Assembly: GCF_003544935.1 (NCBI RefSeq) | Contig: NZ_CP032098.1 | Span: 62,001 to 126,000, forward strand | Direction of reading: 5' to 3' | Origin: Malaciobacter molluscorum LMG 25693 | GTDB taxonomy: Bacteria; Campylobacterota; Campylobacteria; Campylobacterales; Arcobacteraceae | Length of the DNA stretch: 64,000 bases | Shown: positions 2,469 to 50,020 of the stretch, piece after piece | Layout: every line of letters starts with the position of its first letter | How positions within the stretch are numbered: the stretch's first letter is position 1 | Program-made: the position numbers and the translations under genes | Notes under the pieces: model-generated | The model's database searches: none | Seen by the model: the letters and a program-made list of their open reading frames with translations, nothing else | What the model was told of the DNA's origin: nothing

Positions 2469-2497
2469 AATATCATAAGATTTTCATATAGGTTGTG

Positions 2498-2503
2498 TAA
2501 AAT
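2498..2503 (+). promoter_or_regulatory. Putative -10 element for the lut operon
   Basis: TAAAAT lies 24 bp before the lutA start, in the context TGTGTAAAAT, with the AAAGGAG ribosome site immediately before the ATG. Campylobacterota promoters depend mainly on a -10 hexamer, so this is a reasonable call from sequence alone. No operator is evident. Confidence 0.35.
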
Positions 2504-2526: not shown

Positions 2527-3270
2527 ATGAAAATTGGGTTATTTATACCTTGCTTTATGAATGAACTATATCCAGATGTATGTGTTGCTACATATAAGTT
2601 ACTTAAAAATCTAAATATAGATATTGATTATCCTATGAGCCAAACATGCTGTGGTCAGCCAATGGCAAATTCAGGATGTTCAAAAGATATAGAAACTTTA
2701 GCAAAGCAATTTGTCGAGACATTTAAAGATTATGATTATATTGTTGCACCAAGTGGATCATGTGTTGCAATGGTAAAAGATCATTATGGTGTATTTTTTA
2801 AAGATGATGCAGATTATAATAAAGTTAAAACTTCTATTTATGAAGTATGTGAATTTTTACATGATGTTATCAAAATTGATAAACTTGATGTAAGTTTTCC
2901 ATATAAAGTAGGGTTACATAACTCATGTCATGGACATAGAATGTTAAAACTTGCAACTCCTAGTGAACTTAATATTCCATATGATTCAAAATTAAAAAAT
3001 CTATTATCATTGGTTAAAGATATTGAACTTGTAACATTAAAAAGAGAAGATGAATGTTGTGGTTTTGGTGGTACTTTTAGTGTTACTGAAGAAGACATTT
3101 CTATTGCGATGGGAAAAGATAGAATAAAAGATCATCTTGATTCTCATGCTCAAATTATTACAGGTGCAGATATGTCATGTCTGATGCATATGGATGGAAT
3201 CATTAATAGAAATAATGAGAACATAAAAGTGATGCATATTGTAGAAATATTAGCAGGAGTTACAAAATGA
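2527..3270 (+). CDS. lutA: L-lactate oxidation iron-sulfur protein LutA
   Basis: LutA is one of three subunits of the flavin-independent L-lactate dehydrogenase LutABC that oxidises L-lactate to pyruvate. It has 247 residues made of two CCG (DUF224) domains: TCCGQP with Cys41-Cys42 and DECCGFGG with Cys177-Cys178, plus HNSCHG at 131-136. These cysteine-rich motifs bind an iron-sulfur cluster in related proteins. A strong AAAGGAG site precedes the ATG. The stop overlaps the lutB start by four bases, so lutABC forms a tight operon. Confidence 0.93.
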   Translation: MKIGLFIPCFMNELYPDVCVATYKLLKNLNIDIDYPMSQTCCGQPMANSGCSKDIETLAKQFVETFKDYDYIVAPSGSCVAMVKDHYGVFFKDDADYNKVKTSIYEVCEFLHDVIKIDKLDVSFPYKVGLHNSCHGHRMLKLATPSELNIPYDSKLKNLLSLVKDIELVTLKREDECCGFGGTFSVTEEDISIAMGKDRIKDHLDSHAQIITGADMSCLMHMDGIINRNNENIKVMHIVEILAGVTK

Positions 3271-4643
3271 GTAGCAAACACCCATTAAATGCGAAAGCTT
3301 TTGTTGCAAATGATGAGAGAATGCATTGGCATGATAAAGCTTTATGGTTTGTAAGAGAAAAAAGAGATATTACTTCAAAAACAATTCCAGAATGGGAACA
3401 GTTAAGAGAGTATGCAAATAGTATAAAAACACATACTATGGCAAATTTAGATAAGTATCTTATTGAGTTTGAAAAAAATGCACAAGAACGAGGTATTAAA
3501 GTACATTGGGCAAAAGATGCACAAGAACATAATGAAATTGTTTATAATATTTTAAAAGAAAATAATGCAAAAAAACTAGTAAAATCTAAATCTATGCTAA
3601 CTGAAGAGTGCCATTTAAACCCTTTTTTAATTAATAAAGGAATAGAAGTTATTGATACAGATTTAGGTGAAAGAATTGTTCAGTTAAGAGATGAACCACC
3701 TTCACATGTGGTTTTACCTGCAATACACTTAAAAAAACAAGATGTTTCAGATACATTTCATGAACACTTAGGAACGCAAAAAGGGAATTATGATCCTACA
3801 TATTTAACAAGAGCAGCAAGAGCTAATTTAAGAGAGAAGTTCTTAAGTGCTGATGCTGGAATAACAGGGGTGAATTTTGCTATTGCAAATACAGGAGGAG
3901 TTGTAGTTTGTACAAATGAAGGTAATGCAGATATGGGTGCAAATACTCCTAAACTTCATATTGCTTGTATGGGAATAGAAAAAATAATCCCTAGATTAGA
4001 AGATTTAAGTGTATTTACAAGATTACTTGCAAGAAGTGCAACTGGACAAGCTATTACATCATATACTTCTCATTTTCATGGACCAGTTAGTGGTGGTCAA
4101 ATGCATATTGTAATTGTTGATAATAAAAGATCACCATTTTTAAAATCGCAAAAATATCAAAAAGCGTTAAATTGTATTAGATGTGGTGCATGTATGAATA
4201 CTTGTCCAATTTTTAGAAGAAGTGGAGGACACTCATATGAGTATGTTATTCCTGGACCTATTGGATCTTCACTTGCTACATTTCGAGATCCTAAAAAACA
4301 TAAAACATTATCTTTCGCTTGTACTTTATGTGGTTCATGCACTAATGTTTGTCCTGTAAAAATTGATTTGGATTCACAACTTTATAATCATAGACAAGAT
4401 TTAACACAACAAGGTATTATAGATTCTAAGAAAAAGTTTATGTTAAAATCAGCATCTTGGCTTATGTCACATCCAACATTATTTGATATAGCTGGAAAAA
4501 TTGCAAGAAAAGTTGTCCCTTTATTACCAAAATCAATACTTTATACAAAATCAAATGTGTGGGGTAAAAATCGAGATCTACCTCAAATGCCAAAAAACAG
4601 TTTTAAAGAACTTTATAAAAAAGGGATTGAAGATGACAAGTAA
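3267..4643 (+). CDS. lutB: L-lactate oxidation iron-sulfur protein LutB
   Basis: LutB is the large iron-sulfur subunit of L-lactate dehydrogenase LutABC. In the 458 residues I see an LUD domain (about 60-290) followed by two ferredoxin-like [4Fe-4S] motifs, CIRCGACMNTCP starting at Cys303 and CTLCGSCTNVCP starting at Cys352, then the LutB C-terminal region. Length and domain order match the family. It overlaps lutA by 4 bp and lutC by 11 bp, implying coupled translation and a stoichiometric complex. Confidence 0.93.
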   Translation: MSSKHPLNAKAFVANDERMHWHDKALWFVREKRDITSKTIPEWEQLREYANSIKTHTMANLDKYLIEFEKNAQERGIKVHWAKDAQEHNEIVYNILKENNAKKLVKSKSMLTEECHLNPFLINKGIEVIDTDLGERIVQLRDEPPSHVVLPAIHLKKQDVSDTFHEHLGTQKGNYDPTYLTRAARANLREKFLSADAGITGVNFAIANTGGVVVCTNEGNADMGANTPKLHIACMGIEKIIPRLEDLSVFTRLLARSATGQAITSYTSHFHGPVSGGQMHIVIVDNKRSPFLKSQKYQKALNCIRCGACMNTCPIFRRSGGHSYEYVIPGPIGSSLATFRDPKKHKTLSFACTLCGSCTNVCPVKIDLDSQLYNHRQDLTQQGIIDSKKKFMLKSASWLMSHPTLFDIAGKIARKVVPLLPKSILYTKSNVWGKNRDLPQMPKNSFKELYKKGIEDDK

Positions 4644-5220
4644 AGAACAAATATTAGCTTCAATTAGAGAAGATAGAGTAGTTGTAGATACAAACCTTCC
4701 ATCTTATGATAATTTTGGAATGAAATTTGAAAATAAATTTGAGCAATATAAAAAGATGTTAGAGAGTGTTGGTGGAAATACTCTATGTATAAAAAAAGAA
4801 CAATTAGATGAAACAATAATGAATCTTTATCCAGATGCAAAAATTATTACTTCAAATGTAAAAGACTTTACAAAAGTAACATTTGATGCAAATGCACAAG
4901 ATGATATACACACTTTAAAAGATATAGAGTTGTGTGTTGTTGAAGGAAATTTTGCAGTTGCTGAAAATGGTGCAGTATGGGTAAAAAATAGTAATAATAG
5001 ACATAGAGGATTATATTTTATTTCTGAAAATATTGTAATAGTTGTTAAAAAAGATGAAATTGTAAATAATATGCATGAAGCTTATGAAAGAATAAGTTTT
5101 AATAGTGAAGATGCATATGGAGTATTTATAAGTGGACCTTCAAAAACAGCAGATATTGAACAGTCTTTAGTTATTGGTGCTCATGGTCCAAAATCTGGTT
5201 ATGTTATTTTTGTAGATTAG
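4633..5220 (+). CDS. lutC: L-lactate utilisation protein LutC
   Basis: LutC is the third subunit of LutABC. I place the start at the ATG 4633, which gives MTSKEQILASIRE, the usual LutC opening, and a protein of 195 residues. A longer in-frame reading from 4501 would translate sequence that codes for the end of LutB in another frame, so it is rejected. The protein consists of a single LUD domain with the family-like stretch VAENGAVW around residues 107-114. The start lies inside the last codons of lutB. Confidence 0.9.
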   Translation: MTSKEQILASIREDRVVVDTNLPSYDNFGMKFENKFEQYKKMLESVGGNTLCIKKEQLDETIMNLYPDAKIITSNVKDFTKVTFDANAQDDIHTLKDIELCVVEGNFAVAENGAVWVKNSNNRHRGLYFISENIVIVVKKDEIVNNMHEAYERISFNSEDAYGVFISGPSKTADIEQSLVIGAHGPKSGYVIFVD

Positions 5221-5249: not shown

Positions 5250-7439
5250 TTGAAAAAAATCTTGATATTAATAAACCTCTTATTTTTTTCTGTTTGTTAT
5301 GCACAAACATCAACAAAAGAGATTCTTTTACTTCATTCTTACCATAAAGGTTATAAATGGACAGATGAAATTTCATCTGCAATAGAAAAAGAGTTTGCTT
5401 CTTATAATAATATAAATCTAACAACAGTCTATATGGATACCAAGAGAGTATCAAATAAAATTTACTATGAAAAACTTTATGAACTTTATAAAGAAGAGTT
5501 TAAAACTAGAAAATTTGATGTAATAATAGCAAGTGACAATTCAGCATTAGAGTTTTTAATAGAATATCAAAAAAGGCTTTTTCCTAATATACCTATTTTA
5601 TTTTGTGGTATAAACTATTTTGATGAATCAATTTTAGAAAAAAATGGTATGAAAAAATATGTTAGTGGAGTATTAGAACAAGTTGATTTAGAAAAGAATT
5701 TTGAATTAATTTCTAAAATTCATCCAAAATTAAAAAAATTAATAATTATAAATGATAAGTCAAGAACTGGACTTATTATGAAAGAAGATTTAGAAAAAAT
5801 ATTTCCAAAATATAGAAAAAAATTTAAAATAGAGTATATTGATGATATGAGAATGAATGAACTTAAAAAAGTTGTATCTAAAACAGATAAAAATACAGCT
5901 TTATTGTTTGTTCTTTTATTTAAAGATAAAACAGGAAAATTTTTCACTTATAAACAGAGTTTAAAACAGATAAAAAGTTTAGCTCATGTACCTATTTATG
6001 GTCTTTGGGATTTTTATTTAAATTATGGAGTGATTGGTGGATTATTAACTTCAGCTCAAGCGCAAGGTGAAGCTGTATCAAAAATGGCGATGAAAGTTTT
6101 AAATGGTACTGATATTTCACAAATACCAATATTAAAGAAATCACCAAATAGATATATATTTGATTATAATGAATTAAAAAAGTTTGATATAAATATTGAA
6201 AAATATTTAACAAATTACAAAATAATAAATAGACCTTTTTCTTTTTATAGAAAATATAAAATATTAGTTAATATTACAATCATTACAATGGTTATTTTCA
6301 TAATACTCATAATATTAATGAAAGCTAATATAAATAGAAGAAAAAAACTCCAAAGGGCACTTTCAAATAGATTAGAATTTGATAAAGTTTTACTTGATAC
6401 TATTCCAAATGCTATATATTATAAAAATGTTGATGGTAAATTTATAGGATGTAATTTAGCCTTTGCAGATTTAATGCAATTACCAAAACATGATATTATT
6501 GGAAAAACAGCATTTGAACTTTTTCCTGAAGATATTGCCATAAAAAATACACAAGTAGATGAAAAAATATTAAAAACTTTAGAAACTGATACTTCTGAGA
6601 TGGCACTTCATTTTAGTAATAAAGAGATTAAATATTTTATTTTGAATAAAGCAGTATATAAAAATATAGATGGACGAATCGGTGGTATTGTTTGTATTAT
6701 GGATGATATAACAGAAAGAGTACAACAAAAACAGTTTTTAATACAACAAAGTAAATTAGCTGAAATGGGCGATATGGTTGCAGCAATTGCTCACCAATGG
6801 AATGAACCTTTAGTTGAATTATCTGCGCAAGTTCAAGATATTCAAACTTCTTATTTGTTAAATGAATTAAAAGATTGTCAAGTAGAAGAGTTTGTTAAAG
6901 ATTCAATGATTCAAATACAGTATATGTCTAGAACATTAAATGATTTTAGGAACTTCTTAAAACCATCAACTAAAAAAGTTATATTTCTTATAAAAAAAGC
7001 ACTTGATGAAATAAATGAAATTATAGGAAAACAAGTATTTTATTCAAATATTGATATGCATTTTAATTATATTGATGGTGAAGATTTAGTTATTTATGGA
7101 TATGAAAATGAATTTAAACAAGTTTTATTAAATCTAATTAACAATGCAAAAAATAAGATTATGGAGAACCAAAGTGAAAAAAGAGGAAATATTATAATAA
7201 ATATTTCAAAAGAGCAGGAATATAATATTATAGAGATAATTGATGATGGAGGAGAAATAGATGAGAAAATCATCTCATCTATCTTTGAGCCTTATTTTAC
7301 AACAAAAACTGATGGAACAGGAATAGGGCTTTATATGGCTAAAGTAATAGTCGAAGATAAAATGCACGGTTTTATAAAAGTAAAAAACTTTGAGGGGAAT
7401 GTTGTTTTTACAATAAAAGTGCCTTATAAAAAGGATTAA
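5250..7439 (+). CDS. Membrane sensor histidine kinase with periplasmic ABC_sub_bind domain, PAS and kinase core
   Basis: A 729-residue kinase starting at a TTG (5250) with AAAGGAG upstream. Order: signal peptide (about 1-18), a periplasmic ligand-binding domain resembling ABC_sub_bind (about 20-325), one transmembrane helix (about 342-363), a PAS domain (about 375-490), then a kinase core with His515 in AHQWNEPLVELSA, N-box NLINNAKNK and G2-box GTGIGLYMAK. The H-box departs from the common HQWRQPL, and the G1 box reads DDGGEID rather than DNGGGI. It sits between lutABC and the TRAP operon, with its regulator one base downstream. I infer that it senses a carboxylate used by these genes. A paralogue lies at 47840-50020. 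Confidence 0.88.
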   Translation: MKKILILINLLFFSVCYAQTSTKEILLLHSYHKGYKWTDEISSAIEKEFASYNNINLTTVYMDTKRVSNKIYYEKLYELYKEEFKTRKFDVIIASDNSALEFLIEYQKRLFPNIPILFCGINYFDESILEKNGMKKYVSGVLEQVDLEKNFELISKIHPKLKKLIIINDKSRTGLIMKEDLEKIFPKYRKKFKIEYIDDMRMNELKKVVSKTDKNTALLFVLLFKDKTGKFFTYKQSLKQIKSLAHVPIYGLWDFYLNYGVIGGLLTSAQAQGEAVSKMAMKVLNGTDISQIPILKKSPNRYIFDYNELKKFDINIEKYLTNYKIINRPFSFYRKYKILVNITIITMVIFIILIILMKANINRRKKLQRALSNRLEFDKVLLDTIPNAIYYKNVDGKFIGCNLAFADLMQLPKHDIIGKTAFELFPEDIAIKNTQVDEKILKTLETDTSEMALHFSNKEIKYFILNKAVYKNIDGRIGGIVCIMDDITERVQQKQFLIQQSKLAEMGDMVAAIAHQWNEPLVELSAQVQDIQTSYLLNELKDCQVEEFVKDSMIQIQYMSRTLNDFRNFLKPSTKKVIFLIKKALDEINEIIGKQVFYSNIDMHFNYIDGEDLVIYGYENEFKQVLLNLINNAKNKIMENQSEKRGNIIINISKEQEYNIIEIIDDGGEIDEKIISSIFEPYFTTKTDGTGIGLYMAKVIVEDKMHGFIKVKNFEGNVVFTIKVPYKKD

Positions 7440-7440
7440 T

Positions 7441-8088
7441 ATGATGAAAATATTACTTTTAGAAGATAATAAAAAATTAAATGAAACAATAAAAAAAAGA
7501 TTGATGTTAAAAGGATATAAAGTTGACTCTTTTATTGATGGGAGTGAAGCTTATAATAGTTTAACAGAAGGATATAGCTGTTTTATTTTAGATATTAATG
7601 TTCCAAATATAGATGGAATAAAAATATTAAAAAAAATTAGAGAGTTTTATGATGAGGTTCCAATTATTATAATTAGTGCTTCAATAGAGCTTGAAATAAT
7701 TAAACAATCTTATGAATTTGGATGTAATGATTATTTAAAAAAACCTTTTTTTATTGATGAACTTGAAATAAAAGTGCAAAGACTTTGTAAAATTAGAAAT
7801 GACTTAATCTATTTTGATGAGAATTGTTATTTTGATTATAAAAGTTCTGTTGTATTTTTAGGTGTTGAAGAGTTAAGACTTACGAAAAAAGAGAGATTAT
7901 TAATGAATCTTTTTTTGACAAAAAGAAATCAAGTTTTAACATATGATACCATACAAAATTATGTATGGGAAGGAAGCTTTGCTTCTTTAGAATCTATAAG
8001 AAGTCTTATTAGACGCCTAAGAAAGGTACTTTCAAATAAATATATTGAAACAGTTGTGGACACTGGATATATCTTTAAAACTACATAA
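7441..8088 (+). CDS. OmpR/PhoB-type response regulator
   Basis: A 215-residue regulator with a receiver domain (acidic pair Glu8-Asp9, phosphoacceptor Asp51 in FILDINVP, Lys in KKPF) and a C-terminal winged-helix DNA-binding domain ending in RRLRKVL and a beta-hairpin. It begins two bases after the kinase stop, so the pair is co-expressed. Regulators of this type usually bind tandem direct repeats, and such a repeat (8109-8130) stands just downstream in front of the TRAP operon. I therefore infer that this protein controls the transporter. It is about as long as the paralogous regulator at 47196-47840 and shares the motif order. Confidence 0.92.
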   Translation: MMKILLLEDNKKLNETIKKRLMLKGYKVDSFIDGSEAYNSLTEGYSCFILDINVPNIDGIKILKKIREFYDEVPIIIISASIELEIIKQSYEFGCNDYLKKPFFIDELEIKVQRLCKIRNDLIYFDENCYFDYKSSVVFLGVEELRLTKKERLLMNLFLTKRNQVLTYDTIQNYVWEGSFASLESIRSLIRRLRKVLSNKYIETVVDTGYIFKTT

Positions 8089-8108: not shown

Positions 8109-8130
8109 ATTATCATATCATTATCATATC
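8109..8130 (+). promoter_or_regulatory. Perfect 11-bp tandem repeat, candidate response-regulator operator
   Basis: ATTATCATATC occurs twice in direct succession (8109-8119 and 8120-8130). OmpR-family regulators typically bind two direct half-sites with 10-11 bp periodicity. The repeat lies 8 bp upstream of a -10-like TAAAAT (8138-8143), covering the -35 position, which is the layout of an activator site. The adjacent regulator gene ends 20 bp upstream. Confidence 0.6.
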
Positions 8131-8137
8131 AAATGGT

Positions 8138-8143
8138 TAAAAT
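8138..8143 (+). promoter_or_regulatory. Putative -10 element of the TRAP operon
   Basis: TAAAAT 30 bp before the ATG of the substrate-binding protein, directly downstream of the 11-bp tandem repeat and followed by an AAAAGGAG ribosome site. No recognisable -35 is present, consistent with activator dependence. Confidence 0.45.
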
Positions 8144-8172: not shown

Positions 8173-9243
8173 ATGATATTAAAAAAGACAACGAAATTGT
8201 TAGTTGCTTCAGCTTTAGTTGCGGGACTAAGTACAGCAGCATTTGCAAAAGATAGAGTGTATAAGTGGAAATTGGCAACTACTTGGGGTTCAACTTTATC
8301 ACCTTTTATTGATTCACCAAAAAATATGGCAAAACTTGCAGAAGAGATGTCAAATGGAAGACTTCAAATTAGAGTTGATGCAGCAAATAAACATAAAGCA
8401 CCATTAGGTATTTTAGATATGGTTAAAGCAGGGCAATATGAGATGGGTCACTCTGCTTCTTATTATTGGAAAGGTAAAGATATTAATCTTTTACCATTTA
8501 CAACAATGCCTTTTGGTATGACAGCACCTGAACAATATGCATGGTTCTATTATGGTGGTGGAATGGAATTAATGCAAAAAGCATATAAAAAACATAAAGT
8601 ATTATCTTTCCCTGGTGGAAACTCTGGTAACCAAATGGGTGGTTGGTTCAGAAAAGAGATTAATTCTGTTGAGGATTTAAAGGGATTAAAAATGAGAATT
8701 CCTGGATTTGCTGGAGAAGTTTTAGCAAAACTTGGAGTTACTGTTACTAACATTGCTCCTGGTGAATTATATACTTCACTTGAAAGAGGAACAATTGATG
8801 CATTAGAGTGGGTAAGTCCATCAATGGATGTAAAAATGGGATTCCATAAAATTGCACCATATTATTATACAGGATGGCATGAACCAGCGACTGAATTACA
8901 ATTTTTAGTAAATAAAAGAAAATTTGAAAAATTACCAAAAGATTTACAAAAAATCTTAGTTACTGCAATGAGAGTATCTGCATATGATATGTATATTCAA
9001 AATTATCATATGAACTCAGAAGCTTGGGCGAATATTGAAAAAGATTTTCCAAATGTTAAAATAAAAACATTTCCTAAAAGTGTAATTAATGCAATGAAAA
9101 AAGCAAATGAAGAGTTATTAGTAGAAAAAGCAAAAGAGAGTCCACTTTTAAAAGAAGTATTAAAATCACAAGCTGAATATTTGAAAAAAGTAAGAGAATG
9201 GACAAAAATGGCAGATTATAAATATTTAGAAGATAACTTATAA
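8173..9243 (+). CDS. TRAP transporter substrate-binding protein, TakP/DctP type (2-oxo or 2-hydroxy acid)
   Basis: A periplasmic solute-binding protein of 356 residues that delivers its ligand to the DctQM permease encoded next. The signal peptide covers about residues 1-25 with a likely cut after AFA. Family-type motifs include NQMGGWF (Gln154), MRIPG (Arg175, the carboxylate-binding arginine of TRAP proteins) and ALEWVSP (Trp213). This set resembles TakP and the calcium-lactate-binding TRAP proteins rather than C4-dicarboxylate DctP. With lutABC and a D-lactate dehydrogenase-like gene on either side, lactate or a related monocarboxylate is the likely ligand; this is inference. A hairpin separates it from dctQ. 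Confidence 0.85.
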   Translation: MILKKTTKLLVASALVAGLSTAAFAKDRVYKWKLATTWGSTLSPFIDSPKNMAKLAEEMSNGRLQIRVDAANKHKAPLGILDMVKAGQYEMGHSASYYWKGKDINLLPFTTMPFGMTAPEQYAWFYYGGGMELMQKAYKKHKVLSFPGGNSGNQMGGWFRKEINSVEDLKGLKMRIPGFAGEVLAKLGVTVTNIAPGELYTSLERGTIDALEWVSPSMDVKMGFHKIAPYYYTGWHEPATELQFLVNKRKFEKLPKDLQKILVTAMRVSAYDMYIQNYHMNSEAWANIEKDFPNVKIKTFPKSVINAMKKANEELLVEKAKESPLLKEVLKSQAEYLKKVREWTKMADYKYLEDNL

Positions 9244-9358: not shown

Positions 9359-9940
9359 ATGCTATTAAAACTAGAGAGAGGTTTTGATAAACTAGCAGAT
9401 TTTATAGGTGGAATAACAGGTATCGTTTTAGTCCTTATGATATTAAATGTTTTTTATGATGCAATTATGAGGTATCTTTTTAATAGTGGAGATATTGCTT
9501 GGCAAGAGATGGAGTGGCATCTATTTTCTGTAGTAATATTATTAGGAGTATCTTATACTTTAAAAGAAGATGGTCATGTAAGGGTTGATTTGATATATGA
9601 TAATTTATCAGATAAGAAAAAAGCAATGATAAATATGATAGGAGTTATTACTTTTATTTACCCTATATCTTTATTAATTGTATATGGTTCTTATGATTTT
9701 GTACATGAATCTTATGCTTTTAATGAAATCTCAGGTGATCCAGGAGGATTAACACATAGATGGATTATAAAATCAATGATTCCAATATCATTTATTCTTT
9801 TGATGGTTACTTCAATTGGTTTTTTTATAAAAAATTTAAATACTTATTTAGGTTTACATAATTATGAAGACCATTCATTTTCTCATCAAGCTCATGAATA
9901 TAAAGAAAAAATTGAAGAAAAATCAAAAGGAAATAAATAA
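9359..9940 (+). CDS. dctQ: TRAP transporter small permease subunit (DctQ type)
   Basis: DctQ is the small inner-membrane subunit that associates with DctM. The protein has 193 residues and four predicted membrane helices (around 15-38, 55-72, 95-115 and 138-160). The motif DAIMRYLFNSGDIAWQEME, followed by a second helix with SYTLKEDGHVRVD, is typical of the family. The C-terminal tail is charged and cytoplasmic. The stop shares one base with the dctM start, so the two are coupled. Confidence 0.9.
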   Translation: MLLKLERGFDKLADFIGGITGIVLVLMILNVFYDAIMRYLFNSGDIAWQEMEWHLFSVVILLGVSYTLKEDGHVRVDLIYDNLSDKKKAMINMIGVITFIYPISLLIVYGSYDFVHESYAFNEISGDPGGLTHRWIIKSMIPISFILLMVTSIGFFIKNLNTYLGLHNYEDHSFSHQAHEYKEKIEEKSKGNK

Positions 9941-11313
9941 TGATAGGTATTATAATGTTTTTTACAGCATTATTTATGCTGTTAATTGGATTTCCCGTTG
10001 CTTTTACTTTTGGAGCAGTTTCAGTAGTTTTTGGAATAATTGCAGGAATTGTAGAAATATATAGATATGCAGACCCAGATATGAGTTTAACTTCTATTTT
10101 AATAGATGGTTTTTCTGAAGGTATGTTTATGTTTGATTTTATGCCACATAGAATATGGTCTATTATGAATAATACAATTTTAATGGCTGTTCCTATGTTT
10201 ATATTTATGGGGATTATTTTACAAAAAACAGGTCTTGCTGAGAGATTACTTGAATCTATGGGATTTTTATTTGGTGAAGTAAGAGGTGGAGTTGCAATAT
10301 CAACTGTATTAGTTGGAACACTTTTGGCTGCTTCAACTGGAGTTGTTGGTGCATCAGTTGTTGCAATGGGTGTTATCTCTTTACCTGTTATGCTTAAATA
10401 TAAATATAATACAGAACTTGCAACAGGAACAATTTGTGCTTCTGGAACATTAGGACAAATAATTCCTCCTTCAATTGTATTAATTATATTAGGAGATGTT
10501 TTTCAAGTTCCTGTTGGGGATCTATTTAAAGCAGCAGTATGGCCAGGATTGATGCTAGTTGCAGCATATATTTTATTTATATTAATTGTATCTTTTGTAA
10601 AAAAAGATATGGCTCCTGCAATTCCTGCTGATCCATCAAGAGGTTCAAAATCTAAGCAAGTAGTAAAAGCATTAATTGATATTATTCCATCTTTGACTCT
10701 AATTATTTTAGTATTAGGTTCAATTTTTGCAGGTGTTGCAACACCTACTGAATCAGCGGCAGTTGGATGTCTAGGAGCACTTTTATTAAGTATTATGTAT
10801 AAAACTTTTTCAAATTCTACTGTAAAAGAAGCAGCATTAGAATCTGTAAAAATTACATCAATGGTATTTGCTATATTAATTGGTGCAACAGCATTTTCAA
10901 TGGTATTTACTTATACAGGTGGAGATCAATTAGTTGAACATTTTATGATGAATTTACCAGGGGATGAAAAATTAGGATTTATTTTATTTACAATGTTAGC
11001 AATATTTGTACTTGGATTCTTTATTGATTTTGTTGAGATTTCATACATTATTGTTCCAATATTAGTACCAATTGCAACAAATTTAGATATTAATCCTGTT
11101 TGGTTTGCTATACTAATAGCAATGAATTTACAAACATCGTTTTTAACTCCACCTTTTGGATTCTCACTATTTTATTTAAAAGGTGTAGTTCCAGCAACTG
11201 TTAGAACGATACAAATATATAAAGGTGTATTGCCATTTATTATTATTCAAATCTTAATATTGGCATTACTTGCACTGTATCCAGAAATTTTTGGAATACA
11301 ATCAACACTATAA
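9940..11313 (+). CDS. dctM: TRAP transporter large permease subunit (DctM type)
   Basis: DctM is the large membrane subunit that drives sodium- or proton-coupled uptake of the ligand delivered by the binding protein. At 457 residues it has the usual length. It has about 12 hydrophobic segments and conserved family stretches such as GTLGQIIPPSIVLIILG, AGVATPTESAAVG and LTPPFGFSLFYLKG. It starts on the last base of dctQ and is followed by a clear terminator, so the TRAP operon ends here. Confidence 0.93.
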   Translation: MIGIIMFFTALFMLLIGFPVAFTFGAVSVVFGIIAGIVEIYRYADPDMSLTSILIDGFSEGMFMFDFMPHRIWSIMNNTILMAVPMFIFMGIILQKTGLAERLLESMGFLFGEVRGGVAISTVLVGTLLAASTGVVGASVVAMGVISLPVMLKYKYNTELATGTICASGTLGQIIPPSIVLIILGDVFQVPVGDLFKAAVWPGLMLVAAYILFILIVSFVKKDMAPAIPADPSRGSKSKQVVKALIDIIPSLTLIILVLGSIFAGVATPTESAAVGCLGALLLSIMYKTFSNSTVKEAALESVKITSMVFAILIGATAFSMVFTYTGGDQLVEHFMMNLPGDEKLGFILFTMLAIFVLGFFIDFVEISYIIVPILVPIATNLDINPVWFAILIAMNLQTSFLTPPFGFSLFYLKGVVPATVRTIQIYKGVLPFIIIQILILALLALYPEIFGIQSTL

Positions 11314-11528: not shown

Positions 11529-14363
11529 ATGTTACCGCATAAATATCAACAATTTTATAATGATATAATAAAAAAAATACCAGAAAATATTATATTTACT
11601 GATGATTTGCATACATTAGCATATGGAACTGATGCTTCTTTTTATAGACTAATTCCAAAGATGGTAATTAGAGTTGAAAATGCTCAACAAGTTAAAGATA
11701 TTCTTCAATTAGCTTATTTAATGCAAATTAGTGTTACTTTTAGAGCAGCTGGGACTTCCCTTTCAGGTCAAGCAATTAGTGATTCAATATTAATAATTAC
11801 TTCTAGAAATTGGACTGATTTTAAAGTGGCACCTGATCAAAGTTATGTCTCTTTAGCTCCTTCTTTAACTGGAGCACAAGCAAATAATATATTATCACCA
11901 TATGGTAAAAAAATAGGTCCTGACCCAGCAAGTATTAATGCAGCCATGATTGGTGGAATTGCTGCAAATAATGCTTCTGGAATGTGCTGTGGAGTTGCTC
12001 AAAACTCATATAAAACATTAAAATCAATGAAACTTATTTTTAGTGATGGAACAGAACTTGATACAGCAGATGAAAACAGTAAAGATAGTTTTAGAAAAAC
12101 ACATAAAGAGTTTTTAGAAAGTCTTAAATCTTATGCAAAAAGTATAAAAGAAGATGAAAAAGTAAGTAAAAAAATAAAAGAAAAATTCAAAATGAAAAAT
12201 ACAACAGGTTATAGTCTTAATGCACTTGTTGATTTTGATGATGAGTTTGAAATATTGCAGCATCTGATAATAGGAAGTGAAGGTACTTTAGCTTTTATAA
12301 AAGAGATAACTTATTATACAGTCGAAGATTATAAAGATAAAGCTAGTGCATTAGTTTATTTTAAAGATGTAAATGAAGCATGTAATGCAGTTACAAAATT
12401 AAAATTAGCAAAAGAGAATGGTGATATTGTTGTAGATGCAGTTGAACTTATGGATAGAGCAGGTTTAGCAAGTATAGAAAATGATCCTAATATGCCAAAA
12501 TACTTAAAAGATTTTGATAAAGAGGTTACTGCTTTATTAATTGAAACAAGAGCTAAAAATGCAAAAGATTTAGATACTCAAATTAAACAAATTGAAGAGT
12601 CTTTAGAAGAGTTCTCTTTAGTAAGAGATTTATATTTTACAAAAGATGTAAAAGAATATACTCAATACTGGAAAATTAGAAAAGGATTATTTCCAGCTGT
12701 TGGTGCAGTTAGAAACATTGGAACATCTGTTATTATAGAAGATATAGCTTTCCCTATTAAATATATGGCAGAAGCAACACTTAAACTTCAAGAGTTATTT
12801 AAAAAACATAATTATACAGAAGCTTTGATTTTTGGACATGCACTAGAAGGTAACCTTCATTTTGTATTTACACAAGATTTTTCTACACAAGAAGAGATAA
12901 AAAGATATGATGATTTTATGTATGATGTTACACAACTAGTAGCTGTAAATTATCAAGGTAGTTTAAAAGCAGAACATGGAACTGGTCGAAATATGGCGGC
13001 ATTTATAGAATTAGAGTGGGGCAAAATTGCTTATAATATGATGAAAAATATTAAAAAACTTTTTGATCCTAATGATATTTTAAATCCAGGTGTAATTATT
13101 AATGAAGATAAAGAAGCACACCTTAAAAATTTAAAACCACTTCCTGCTACAAATGATTTAGTTGACAAATGTATTGAGTGCGGTTTTTGTGAACCAGTTT
13201 GTCCATCTAATGTATTAACTTTAACTCCAAGACAAAGAATTGTTATAAATAGAGAAATATCAAGATTACAAGAGATTCAAGAGATAAAAAAAGCACAAGA
13301 TTTAAAACAGTTATATCAATATGATGGAATAGAAACATGTGCAACATGTAGTTTATGTTCAACTGCATGTCCTGTTGGAATAGATACAGGAAGTTTGACA
13401 AAATATTTAAGACATGAGCAAGTTACACCAGCACAAGATAAAGTAGCAAATTTAATTACAAATAATTTCTCTAGAACATTAAGTTCTATGAGGTTTGGAT
13501 TAAAAGCTGCAAATTTAACACATTCTATTTTAGGTACATCTATGATGAAAAGTTTAACATCAGGTCTTAGAAAAGTATCAAATAATAAAATTCCAAGATG
13601 GAGTGAAAATTTACCTAAAGGTATAAGTGTAAATACTAGAATTGAGCAAAAAGCTAGTAATCTAAAAGTTGTATATTTCCCTTCATGTTTAAATAGAACT
13701 ATGGGATTAAGTAGTGCAAGTAAAGAAGAAAAAGAGTTATTTGATGTAACTGTTGAACTTTTAAATAAAGCAGGATATGAGATAATTTTTCCTAAAAAAA
13801 TTGAAAGTTTATGTTGTGGTATGCCATTTTCTTCAAAAGGATTTACAACTCAAGCAAATACAAAGTCAAAACAGTTAGAAGAAGCATTACTCGAAGCTAG
13901 TAATAACGCACAATATCCAGTTCTTTGTGATACAAGTCCATGTGTAAAAAAAATGGTTGAGAGTTTTAAAAGCAAACTTAAAGTTTTTGAACCAATTGAG
14001 TTTGCATTAGAACATTTAATTGATAAATTAGATATTGAAAAAATAGATGAACCAATTGCAATTCATTCAACTTGTTCTACTAGAAAAATGGGATTATATG
14101 AAAAATTTGTTGAGTTAGGAAATATTTGTTCTACAAAGGTAATAGTTCCAGCTGATATTACATGTTGTGGTTTTGCAGGAGATAGAGGATTTAATTATCC
14201 AGAATTAAATCAAAGTGCATTAAGAAACTTACCAAATAGTATAAAAGAAGCAAAATATGCTTTCTCTACTTCTAAAACTTGTGAAATAGGATTAAGTGAG
14301 TATTCAGGAAAAGATTATAACTCAATTTTTTATTTATTAAATAGATGTAGTAGTGCAAAATAA
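11529..14363 (+). CDS. FAD-linked oxidase with Fe-S and CCG domains, D-lactate dehydrogenase-like
   Basis: A 944-residue respiratory flavoprotein. Domain order: FAD-binding type 4 domain (about 30-260) with the GPDPASI...GGIAANNASG region, FAD-oxidase C-terminal domain (about 270-530), two [4Fe-4S] motifs (CIECGFCEPVCP from Cys548, CATCSLCSTACP from Cys604) and a C-terminal pair of CCG motifs (Cys762 in CCGMPF, Cys879 in CCGFAG). This is the arrangement of Dld-II type D-lactate dehydrogenases, which pass electrons to the quinone pool. Beside lutABC and a TRAP importer it would let the cell use both lactate isomers. A D-2-hydroxyglutarate or glycolate role cannot be excluded. Confidence 0.85.
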   Translation: MLPHKYQQFYNDIIKKIPENIIFTDDLHTLAYGTDASFYRLIPKMVIRVENAQQVKDILQLAYLMQISVTFRAAGTSLSGQAISDSILIITSRNWTDFKVAPDQSYVSLAPSLTGAQANNILSPYGKKIGPDPASINAAMIGGIAANNASGMCCGVAQNSYKTLKSMKLIFSDGTELDTADENSKDSFRKTHKEFLESLKSYAKSIKEDEKVSKKIKEKFKMKNTTGYSLNALVDFDDEFEILQHLIIGSEGTLAFIKEITYYTVEDYKDKASALVYFKDVNEACNAVTKLKLAKENGDIVVDAVELMDRAGLASIENDPNMPKYLKDFDKEVTALLIETRAKNAKDLDTQIKQIEESLEEFSLVRDLYFTKDVKEYTQYWKIRKGLFPAVGAVRNIGTSVIIEDIAFPIKYMAEATLKLQELFKKHNYTEALIFGHALEGNLHFVFTQDFSTQEEIKRYDDFMYDVTQLVAVNYQGSLKAEHGTGRNMAAFIELEWGKIAYNMMKNIKKLFDPNDILNPGVIINEDKEAHLKNLKPLPATNDLVDKCIECGFCEPVCPSNVLTLTPRQRIVINREISRLQEIQEIKKAQDLKQLYQYDGIETCATCSLCSTACPVGIDTGSLTKYLRHEQVTPAQDKVANLITNNFSRTLSSMRFGLKAANLTHSILGTSMMKSLTSGLRKVSNNKIPRWSENLPKGISVNTRIEQKASNLKVVYFPSCLNRTMGLSSASKEEKELFDVTVELLNKAGYEIIFPKKIESLCCGMPFSSKGFTTQANTKSKQLEEALLEASNNAQYPVLCDTSPCVKKMVESFKSKLKVFEPIEFALEHLIDKLDIEKIDEPIAIHSTCSTRKMGLYEKFVELGNICSTKVIVPADITCCGFAGDRGFNYPELNQSALRNLPNSIKEAKYAFSTSKTCEIGLSEYSGKDYNSIFYLLNRCSSAK

Positions 14364-47195: not shown

Positions 47196-47840
47196 TTATT
47201 TACTAGTTATTAGTTTATATCCATAGTTTTCTGTTTGAATAAATTCTTTACAAACTTTTGAACGAACTCTTTTAATTAAAGATCTTATTCCTGAAATTCC
47301 AACAATTTCGCCTTCCCAAACGTATTGCTCTATCGTGTCTAAAGATACAGCTGTATTTGGTGTTTTACAAAGCAAGTTTAAAAGTCTTTTCTCTTTTTGA
47401 GTTAATTTTATAGAATTTTTATTTTCATCATAAAGTATCTCTTCTTTTATATTAAAATGAAAGTCATTGCAAAAGATTAATTCCTCTTCTTTATTACATA
47501 AAAGATCCACTTTACATTCAAGTTCATAAATATAAAAAGGTTTTTTCAAAAAATCATTACATCCACTACTGTAAGCTTTTTTTACTGTTTCAAATTCAAT
47601 ATTTGAGCTTATTATAATTGCAGGAGTTGTTTTATCTCTAGATCTTATCTCTTTTAGAAGATTTAGGCCATTTAGTGATGGAACATTAATATCTAAAATA
47701 AAGCAGTCATATCCATTTATTATTTCATATAAAGCCTCTTGTCCATCTTGAAACCAATCAACAATTAAACCTTTTTCTTCAAACATTTCTTTTATTATTT
47801 CTGCAAGACTAACATTATCTTCTAGTAATAAGATTTTCAT
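47196..47840 (-). CDS. OmpR-type response regulator (second copy)
   Basis: 214 residues with receiver domain (Asp50 in CFILDINVPSLNG, Lys in LKKPF) and winged-helix output domain (RSLIKRVRSKV, then TENYGYKL). It shares motifs and size with the regulator at 7441-8088 (EDNxxL, GYxCFILDINVP, QYVWEG), so the two are paralogues. Its ATG shares one base with the kinase stop. The likely target is the divergent dms operon 2 kb upstream. Confidence 0.9.
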   Translation of the reverse strand: MKILLLEDNVSLAEIIKEMFEEKGLIVDWFQDGQEALYEIINGYDCFILDINVPSLNGLNLLKEIRSRDKTTPAIIISSNIEFETVKKAYSSGCNDFLKKPFYIYELECKVDLLCNKEEELIFCNDFHFNIKEEILYDENKNSIKLTQKEKRLLNLLCKTPNTAVSLDTIEQYVWEGEIVGISGIRSLIKRVRSKVCKEFIQTENYGYKLITSK

Positions 47841-50020
47841 TATTTAATACTCTCTGATATAGGAATTGATATAGATACTCTTGTACCATTTAAGATTTGT
47901 GATACTTTTATTTTTCCATGCATTTTATTTTCTATGATTAATTTTGCCATATATAAGCCAAATCCATCACCTTTACTTTTTGTAGTAAAAAAAGGATTAA
48001 ATAGTTGTTTAATTATTTCATCTTTTATTCCACATCCATTATCTTCTATATATAGTTCGATATTATCAGTATATTTATAAAGTGATAGTTTAATCAAGCC
48101 TTTTAGTGAAGTATTTGATTTTTTTGCACTGTTTATAGCATCTTTAGCATTATTTATTATACTTACTACTACTTGTTTAAACTCATTTGGATAACCATAT
48201 GCAAAACAATACGCTTTTGATTTATTTTCATAATTTAATTCTATATGAGAATATTTTAAAGAGTGAGATAAAAGTGTTAATACTTCTTGTAATCCAGTAT
48301 CAACATTAAAGGCTTTTGGCATATTTGAAGGTCTAATAAAATCTCTAAATCCATCAATTGTATCACTCATATATATAGTTTGTGTCATTATATTATCATA
48401 GAAGATTTTTATATCATCACTTGTAAGTTTATTTTTTTTATCATAATACATCATTTTATGTGCAATTGCTGAAAGTTCAACTAAAGGATTTTTCCATTGG
48501 TGTACAATTGCAGATAACATCTCTCCCACTTCTGATAATTTTGATTGTTGTATTATAAATTGTGTATTTACTTCAAGTTGTCTTTTTTCTGTAATATTTG
48601 TAATGATTGATACAACACCACCATTTTCACCTTTGTTATTTAAAAACATTTGGCTTGTCAATCTAAATATCTTTTCATCTGAAGTAAACTCTATTTCTTC
48701 TAAAGATTTTAGATTATTCTTAATTTGTAAATTACATAAATTAAAAAAAACTTTACAAATATCTTTACCTATAATCTCTTCTTGTTTTAAATTCAAAAGT
48801 TTACAAAAAGAGTTATTACACCCTTTTATTTTAAATTGATTATCGATCCAAAATATAGAGTTCTGTATATTATTTAATAAAACTTCTTGTAACTCGCTTT
48901 GTCCTTTTAATTTTTGACTTAGTTTATATTTTTGATAGTTATTTATTATTGCAAAAATTAAAGATATTAATAAAAATGGAAATATTATAAAAGCATATTC
49001 TACTAACTTTTTATGTTTTTCAAAAAAAGTTTTTGGTAGATTTATTATAATTGCATCTTTGGGAATTTTATCCATGTTAATATTATATTTTTCCATAGCT
49101 TTGCAATCAAAAGACCATTTTGACGGTACAATAATTGGATTGTATTTTAACTTTTTATTTGTTTGTAATATTCTAATTACTTGTTTTGCTGATTCTACTC
49201 CTAAATCATAACCTCTTAATAAATAGCCACCAATTACACCTTTTCCAAAGTGTGAGTCTGACATAGAAAACAAAGGAACTTTTGAAGAATTTAACACATC
49301 ATTTACATCATAGTATGGAATATATCTACCTTCTTTATCTCTAAAAAGACTTCCAAATAAAACAGCACTATTTTTAGGAAGATTTTTTATATCTTTTTTT
49401 ATTTGCTCTAAATTACCATTTAAATTAAGAGTTACTTTTATTCCCTTTTCTTCAAGTTTTTTTCCTTCATTTCTATAAGTGTGATTTACTAATACAGAAG
49501 CTCCTGTATAATCATTTATAATATATAGTTGTTCTAAATTAGGTAGTGTTTTTGCAATAAAATTCATATTTACTTTTATCTCTTTACTCTCTAATATCAA
49601 AGGAATATTTTTATTTAATATAATATTTATATCAAGTCCAGGATCTCTTTTATCTATTCCACAAAAAACTAAAGGGATATTTTTAAACAATTCATTTCTA
49701 TATTTTAATACAAATTCAACTGCTTCATTATCAGCTACAATAATAGCATCGAAAGTTTGATTTTCCATTTTTAAAACAAATAATTTATATAAAGAATTCA
49801 TATATTCTTTCGAATTTATCTTTTTTGTATCCATATATTCTGTTGTGATTTCATAATGATCTTGTTGCAAAAGTAACGTGTCTTCTATACCTTTTGATAT
49901 ATTATCAGACCAAACTAGTCCTTTATTATATGATTGCAATATAAGTATATGTCTATTTTCTGCATATAAAGAACCATAACACGATAAAAATATTATGATA
50001 GAACTCAATAAAAATCTCAT
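47840..50020 (-). CDS. Membrane sensor histidine kinase with periplasmic ABC_sub_bind domain (second copy)
   Basis: 726 residues with the same layout as the kinase at 5250-7439: signal peptide (1-20), periplasmic ABC_sub_bind-like domain (about 22-310), a membrane helix (about 338-360), PAS (about 375-480) and kinase core with His507 in HQWKNPLVELSA, N-box IINNAKDAI, G1 EDNGCGIKDE and G2 GDGFGLYMAK. The H-box again has PLVELSA in place of PLNALG. It is divergent from dmsABC, 132 bp apart, so it may sense an S- or N-oxide or related solute and switch on dms. Confidence 0.88.
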   Translation of the reverse strand: MRFLLSSIIIFLSCYGSLYAENRHILILQSYNKGLVWSDNISKGIEDTLLLQQDHYEITTEYMDTKKINSKEYMNSLYKLFVLKMENQTFDAIIVADNEAVEFVLKYRNELFKNIPLVFCGIDKRDPGLDINIILNKNIPLILESKEIKVNMNFIAKTLPNLEQLYIINDYTGASVLVNHTYRNEGKKLEEKGIKVTLNLNGNLEQIKKDIKNLPKNSAVLFGSLFRDKEGRYIPYYDVNDVLNSSKVPLFSMSDSHFGKGVIGGYLLRGYDLGVESAKQVIRILQTNKKLKYNPIIVPSKWSFDCKAMEKYNINMDKIPKDAIIINLPKTFFEKHKKLVEYAFIIFPFLLISLIFAIINNYQKYKLSQKLKGQSELQEVLLNNIQNSIFWIDNQFKIKGCNNSFCKLLNLKQEEIIGKDICKVFFNLCNLQIKNNLKSLEEIEFTSDEKIFRLTSQMFLNNKGENGGVVSIITNITEKRQLEVNTQFIIQQSKLSEVGEMLSAIVHQWKNPLVELSAIAHKMMYYDKKNKLTSDDIKIFYDNIMTQTIYMSDTIDGFRDFIRPSNMPKAFNVDTGLQEVLTLLSHSLKYSHIELNYENKSKAYCFAYGYPNEFKQVVVSIINNAKDAINSAKKSNTSLKGLIKLSLYKYTDNIELYIEDNGCGIKDEIIKQLFNPFFTTKSKGDGFGLYMAKLIIENKMHGKIKVSQILNGTRVSISIPISESIK

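Follow-up and report, generated by a model that had tools for sequence, protein, structure and literature searches.

An 11-bp direct repeat in the -35 position of the dctP promoter is very probably the site at which a dimer of the adjacent OmpR/PhoB-type response regulator (RR) activates genes for lactate uptake and oxidation, including its own operon. On balance we also favour a wider reading, an undescribed lactate-sensing two-component regulon of the Arcobacteraceae in which a kinase with a TrpX-like sensor would detect lactate or pyruvate directly and RR would act via a PHO-box-like sequence (here termed the lactate box) that precedes lutABC, the transporter genes and an unlinked permease gene, the box having stayed while the transporter was replaced (TRAP by LctP) or lost. 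The window, meaning the whole 64-kb stretch of DNA analysed, contains the features collected in Table 1. RR possesses the receiver and winged-helix Trans_reg_C domains of an OmpR/PhoB-family protein, and the histidine kinase (HK) gene lies directly upstream of it, an order shared by 64 loci of the family.

Table 1. Promoter elements and genes of the lactate locus, in window positions
Feature	Position	Strand	Basis
11-bp direct repeat, predicted RR-dimer site, -35 position of dctP promoter	8109..8131	+	sequence, TRF, conservation, PWM
Predicted -10 element TAAAAT of dctPQM promoter, extended form GTTAnAAT	8138..8143	+	10 nt past second TCAT; conserved spacing and alignment columns
Second box with its -10, TCATAAGATTTTCATATAGGTTGTGTAAAAT, before lutA (lutABC-HK-RR operon; predicted autoregulation)	2473..2503	+	pattern search, conservation, PWM
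lutA-like, CCG domains, lactate oxidation complex	2527..3270	+	PF02754
lutB-like iron-sulfur protein	3267..4643	+	PF02589/PF11870; TIGR00273 437.5 bits, just below cut-off 444.8
lutC-like LUD-domain protein	4630..5220	+	PF02589
Sensor histidine kinase: periplasmic-binding-protein-like sensor (PF04392), PAS, HATPase_c	5250..7439	+	domains, AlphaFold2
OmpR/PhoB-type response regulator, predicted box binder	7441..8088	+	PF00072 3.6e-22 and PF00486 7.4e-14
dctP, TRAP solute-binding protein, 2-oxo/2-hydroxy-acid type	8173..9243	+	PF03480, nearest structures
dctQ	9359..9940	+	PF04290
dctM	9940..11313	+	PF06808, TIGR00786
FAD-linked oxidase with FeS domain, putative D-lactate/2-hydroxyacid dehydrogenase, downstream of dctPQM	11529..14363	+	PF02913, PF01565

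Direct reading of the sequence confirmed the perfect 11-bp tandem that a preliminary description had placed after the OmpR-type regulator gene and upstream of TAAAAT. The unit ATTATCATATC occurs at 8109-8119 and 8120-8130, with the repetition extending to 8131 (TRF period 11, 100% matches), and begins after 20 bp from the end of the RR stop codon at 8088. The two half-site cores, TCAT at 8113-8116 and 8124-8127, are one helical turn apart; TAAAAT lies 7 bp past the repeat end (counted from 8130) and is followed on its 3' side by a ribosome-binding site (AAGGAG) and the dctP ATG. Repetition by itself is only mildly unusual. No other perfect 11-bp tandem exists in the window, and about 7% of dinucleotide shuffles of the window contain one, hence repetition could not make the case by itself. 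A search of the 2.8-Mb genome gave a single copy of the 22-mer, even with 3 mismatches allowed. Perfect identity is specific to this species: between the paired 11-mers of the orthologous sites compared, only 5-10 of 11 positions match, and identity was therefore rejected as evidence. The exact 11/11 match, stressed in the preliminary description, is incidental, and what is conserved is the TCAT half-sites, their 11-bp period and the gap to the -10 element.

Conservation was assessed in 104 Arcobacteraceae genomes, of which 64 loci held lutABC, HK and RR in the retrieved stretch; these loci are related to one another and not independent. In an initial comparison of relatives, nearly all of the first 34 non-identical loci had TCAT pairs 11 bp apart in the gap after the RR gene, and 30 fitted an ungapped 44-column alignment with 14 invariant columns and freely varying spacers. 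L060 and L061 were true exceptions; L066 resembled one only on account of an overlap between the RR stop codon and its first half-site. The conserved frame is TCAT-N7-TCAT-N10-TAnnAT, in which one helical turn separates the half-sites and the distance to the -10 element is constant. It was found before dctP (43 loci) or the lactate permease in its place (12) at 55 of 55 loci, 51 strictly, and before lutA, the first gene of the lutABC-HK-RR operon, at 64 of 64 (49 strict), against averages of 0.01 strict and 0.3 relaxed matches in dinucleotide shuffles. TCAT pairs had period 11 at 54/64 lutA and 54/55 transporter loci and almost never a neighbouring period, and the 10-nt gap to the -10 element was present at 54 lutA, all 55 transporter and 29 unlinked-lctP loci, with none at 9 or 11. 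No box was found upstream of the LutB, LutC, RR, DctQ or DctM genes in the same loci. Upstream of HK there were 14 relaxed matches in 63 loci and no strict one, all located in conserved lutC coding sequence, hence a relaxed match by itself is weak evidence.

Among relatives, the spaced half-sites and -10 element are conserved far beyond chance. The preliminary description had staked its prediction on the repeat's presence in relatives with the same gene order, and this check did not refute it: all 55 family loci with dctP or lctP after RR have the paired half-sites at period 11, with 10 nt between the second and the -10 element. A direct repeat with a period of about 11 bp and conserved half-sites, lying over the -35 position at a fixed distance from the predicted -10 element, has the layout of an OmpR/PhoB-type tandem site.

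Further copies of the box were sought throughout the genome. The strict pattern gave 7 matches compared with 3 for a reversed control, and 5-12 per genome in the genus compared with 2-5. A third box lies at C1:874194, 55 bp before an unlinked L-lactate permease gene (lctP; PF02652, TIGR00795), whose family orthologues had a box in all 30 cases retrieved (20 strict, 10 relaxed, with L290 doubtful), mostly at much the same distance from the start codon. The lutA and transporter sites of 85 relatives, without this genome and all unlinked lctP sites, served to train a weight matrix, which ranked the dctP site first in the window (35.7 bits) and the lutA site second (30.8), the third-best match reaching 10.2. 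The lctP site scored 12.5 bits even though its class was absent from training, and is weaker than the other two sites of this genome; the lutA site reached only E 0.09 with a profile built from transporter sites. One genome therefore carries the box before several unlinked lactate genes (lutA at 2473, dctP at 8113, lctP at C1:874194), and all convincing targets found are lactate genes, none of them phosphate genes. The search before orthologous TRAP genes and elsewhere in the genome, proposed in the preliminary description, returned boxes at dctP orthologues, lutA and lctP. That description is supported in its essentials, but its choice of the TRAP operon as target was too narrow, as the regulon also takes in lutA and the unlinked permease; the regulon's theme is lactate, and possibly pyruvate, embracing lactate uptake as well as oxidation.

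Several other matches in this genome were set aside. The second match of a sequence-only covariance profile (C1:1374796) is inside a coding region and probably due to chance, and the strict matches at C1:71440 (antisense in dctP), C1:1354813 and C1:2120226 have no plausible target gene. A weaker spaced-pattern match at C1:2790993 (L176) precedes another response-regulator gene, with similar-looking matches in other genomes of the genus, and may be that regulator's own box.

The box was retained through changes of transporter. At 12 loci (L181, L185, L187, L193, L195, L199, L205, L207, L208, L215, L217, L220) an L-lactate permease occupies the position of dctPQM and the box remains, a non-homologous transporter replacement. 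The FAD oxidase, without a box of its own in this genome, has a strict one in 12/56 loci, two of those without a transporter, and frequently where lctP replaces dctPQM; in L189 and L204 no transporter lies between RR and the oxidase and the box directly precedes the latter. The dctP box is also kept where a second, convergent two-component system intervenes (L184, L272-L275). To judge from these arrangements, the box follows function rather than one gene. A convergent second regulator (~60% identical), mostly with its kinase, was observed after RR in L184, L186, L188, L194, L210, L211 and L214, and sits between RR and dctP wherever dctP was found. The gene for the unlinked lactate permease seems to be disrupted in one genome of the genus (G001, C90:107411-109098), giving two partial matches in different frames and one stop.

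Whether RR itself reads the box was considered by comparing their distributions. The recognition helix SLESIRSLIRRLRK is nearly constant among RR orthologues, and wherever the box does not vary this DNA-binding helix does not either. Beyond the Arcobacteraceae, the comparison took in 40 lut loci of other families in the same order. No box was found before the lut genes in 24 of these 40, in genomes without an RR match at E <= 1e-50, nor in G075, the one family genome with lutABC but no RR. One outside genome with only a 48% paralogue gave a relaxed match. Fifteen Sulfurospirillum-like genomes encode a 52-62% identical regulator unlinked to lut, and the box precedes lutA in only 4 of them; several of their regulator-dctP gaps are without a box, which drifts outside the Arcobacteraceae, the half-site becoming TGTCAT in the most distant relatives. 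Absence of the box without the regulator fits RR as the binder, but is confounded with phylogeny. The strongest competing explanation is that the box is bound by another OmpR-family regulator, either one belonging to a paralogous two-component system or a phosphate regulator of the PhosR/PhoB kind. This genome has about 20 regulators with a match at E <= 1e-20, and distant boxes (TGTCATATAGATGTCATAT, L064/L066) resemble the E. coli pstS PHO box TGTCATAAAACTGTCATA (PMC10294691). We regard this as improbable, since the convincing targets are all lactate genes, the recognition helices of paralogues differ, lut genes lack the box where RR is missing, and box and RR stay together when the transporter changes.

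The resemblance to known systems is closest for the PHO box, in which two 11-nt direct-repeat units (7 conserved and 4 less conserved nt) are bound head-to-tail by the PhoB/OmpR-type effector domain, with the interaction of PhoB with sigma triggering initiation (PMC4415409). The lactate box TATCATATnATTnTCATnT has the TCAT-N7-TCAT frame of pstS, but in the Arcobacteraceae an A replaces the G before TCAT, its targets are lactate uptake and oxidation genes (lut, dctPQM, lctP), and the cognate kinase has a binding-protein-like sensor. RR scores 84.7 bits, far below the PhoB equivalog cut-off of 296.2, and falls under both the TIGR02154 and NF053854 cut-offs, which places the system outside the Pho regulon. 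KdpE, also an OmpR-family regulator, binds two 6-bp direct repeats with 5 bp between them before kdpFABC, giving the same period of 11 (PMC3264566), but its half-site (TTTATA/TTTACA) and regulon are different. In Campylobacter jejuni, of a related class, the lctP promoter is reportedly bound by the response regulator CemR (Cj1608), which would also influence the expression of lctP and lut (PMC11334517), yet CemR is described as atypical and corresponds to neither this kinase-regulator pair nor this box. Two-component regulators including LurR target a lactate oxidation operon in Desulfovibrio (PMC6456213); phylum, operon and regulator set all differ from the Arcobacteraceae system. In the literature searched, no lactate two-component system of Arcobacter was found, nor any description of this one.

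We infer binding by RR, its dependence on phosphorylation, activation rather than repression, and the ligand. Two half-sites, each a TCAT core with an A/T-rich flank (ATATCATAT), which an 11-bp spacing puts on the same side of the helix, would take an RR dimer, the second half-site lying 10 nt upstream of the extended -10 GTTAnAAT so that RR would sit in the -35 position. Housekeeping promoters of the Campylobacterota depend little on a -35 box, hence RR most likely recruits RNA polymerase through contact with the sigma factor, in a PhoB-like manner. RpoD promoters in C. jejuni reportedly have a periodic signal in lieu of a -35 box (Petersen et al. 2003, cited in PMC3847290), and an activator in that place would therefore be expected to matter. 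Phosphorylated RR would then induce its own operon, lutABC-HK-RR, as well as dctPQM, the oxidase that follows it and the unlinked L-lactate permease gene.

A protein bound over the -35 position can also block polymerase, and RR might accordingly be a repressor released by the signal. We give this slightly less credence than binding by another regulator; a direct repeat at a fixed 10 nt from the -10 element is the activation geometry of PhoB-type regulators, a repressor site would not need such fixed spacing, and apart from the box no good -35 hexamer is conserved. Far less probable is that the element is core promoter only, an A/T-rich example of the periodic signal typical of Campylobacterota RpoD promoters and said to replace the -35 box in C. 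jejuni, acting with no regulator: promoters in general have neither an invariant C in both half-sites nor a fixed 11-bp period, the pattern exceeds its reversed control in genomes of the genus, and it is absent from lut promoters without RR. Chance duplication through replication slippage, suggested by the frequency of perfect tandems in shuffled windows and by identity unique to this species, is refuted by the presence of both half-sites at the same spacing in all family relatives and retains next to no probability.

Returning to activation by RR, the kinase would use its binding-protein-like domain to sense a signal in the periplasm, either lactate or a related compound such as pyruvate, and would phosphorylate RR. 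The AlphaFold2 model of this sensor (pLDDT 94) has TrpX/CD0873-type binding proteins as its nearest folds, and a small periplasmic molecule is therefore the likely ligand. DctP is 64-66% identical to its nearest solved structures, 5cm6 and 4pet, followed by 2hzk (alpha-keto-acid binding subunit), 7ug8 (ketovalerate receptor) and 2zzv/TTHA0766 (calcium and lactate); as its own model reached only pLDDT 77, the sequence match is the stronger evidence. This proximity to alpha-keto-acid and lactate binding proteins makes lactate or pyruvate the likely cargo, which accords with a regulon that contains lutABC and lctP. The replacement of the TRAP system by an unrelated lactate permease behind the same box likewise suggests lactate or pyruvate, and thereby points to the substrate of a TRAP transporter.

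The site, its geometry and conservation, its three target promoters and its link to the presence of RR can be read from the sequences compared, and provide a testable, sequence-defined lactate-use regulon for the whole family Arcobacteraceae, whose many two-component systems mostly lack assigned roles; A. butzleri has 78 two-component system genes (PMC2147049). Paralogous pairs of kinase and regulator with the same architecture number at least five, at 47196-50020 (-) in the window and in G000 at C1:267854-270665, 272219-275052, 2519274-2522127 and 2583096-2585933, several adjoining genes that resemble carboxylate or amino-acid transporters. The lactate box was not found in the promoters examined at these paralogous systems, which form an expanded family with boxes that might be decoded in a similar manner. 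The putative transporter gene starting at C1:272062 (-; L178), beside one such system, has in its promoter TTTGTCATACTAATGACATATT an inverted repeat, TGTCAT/ATGACA.
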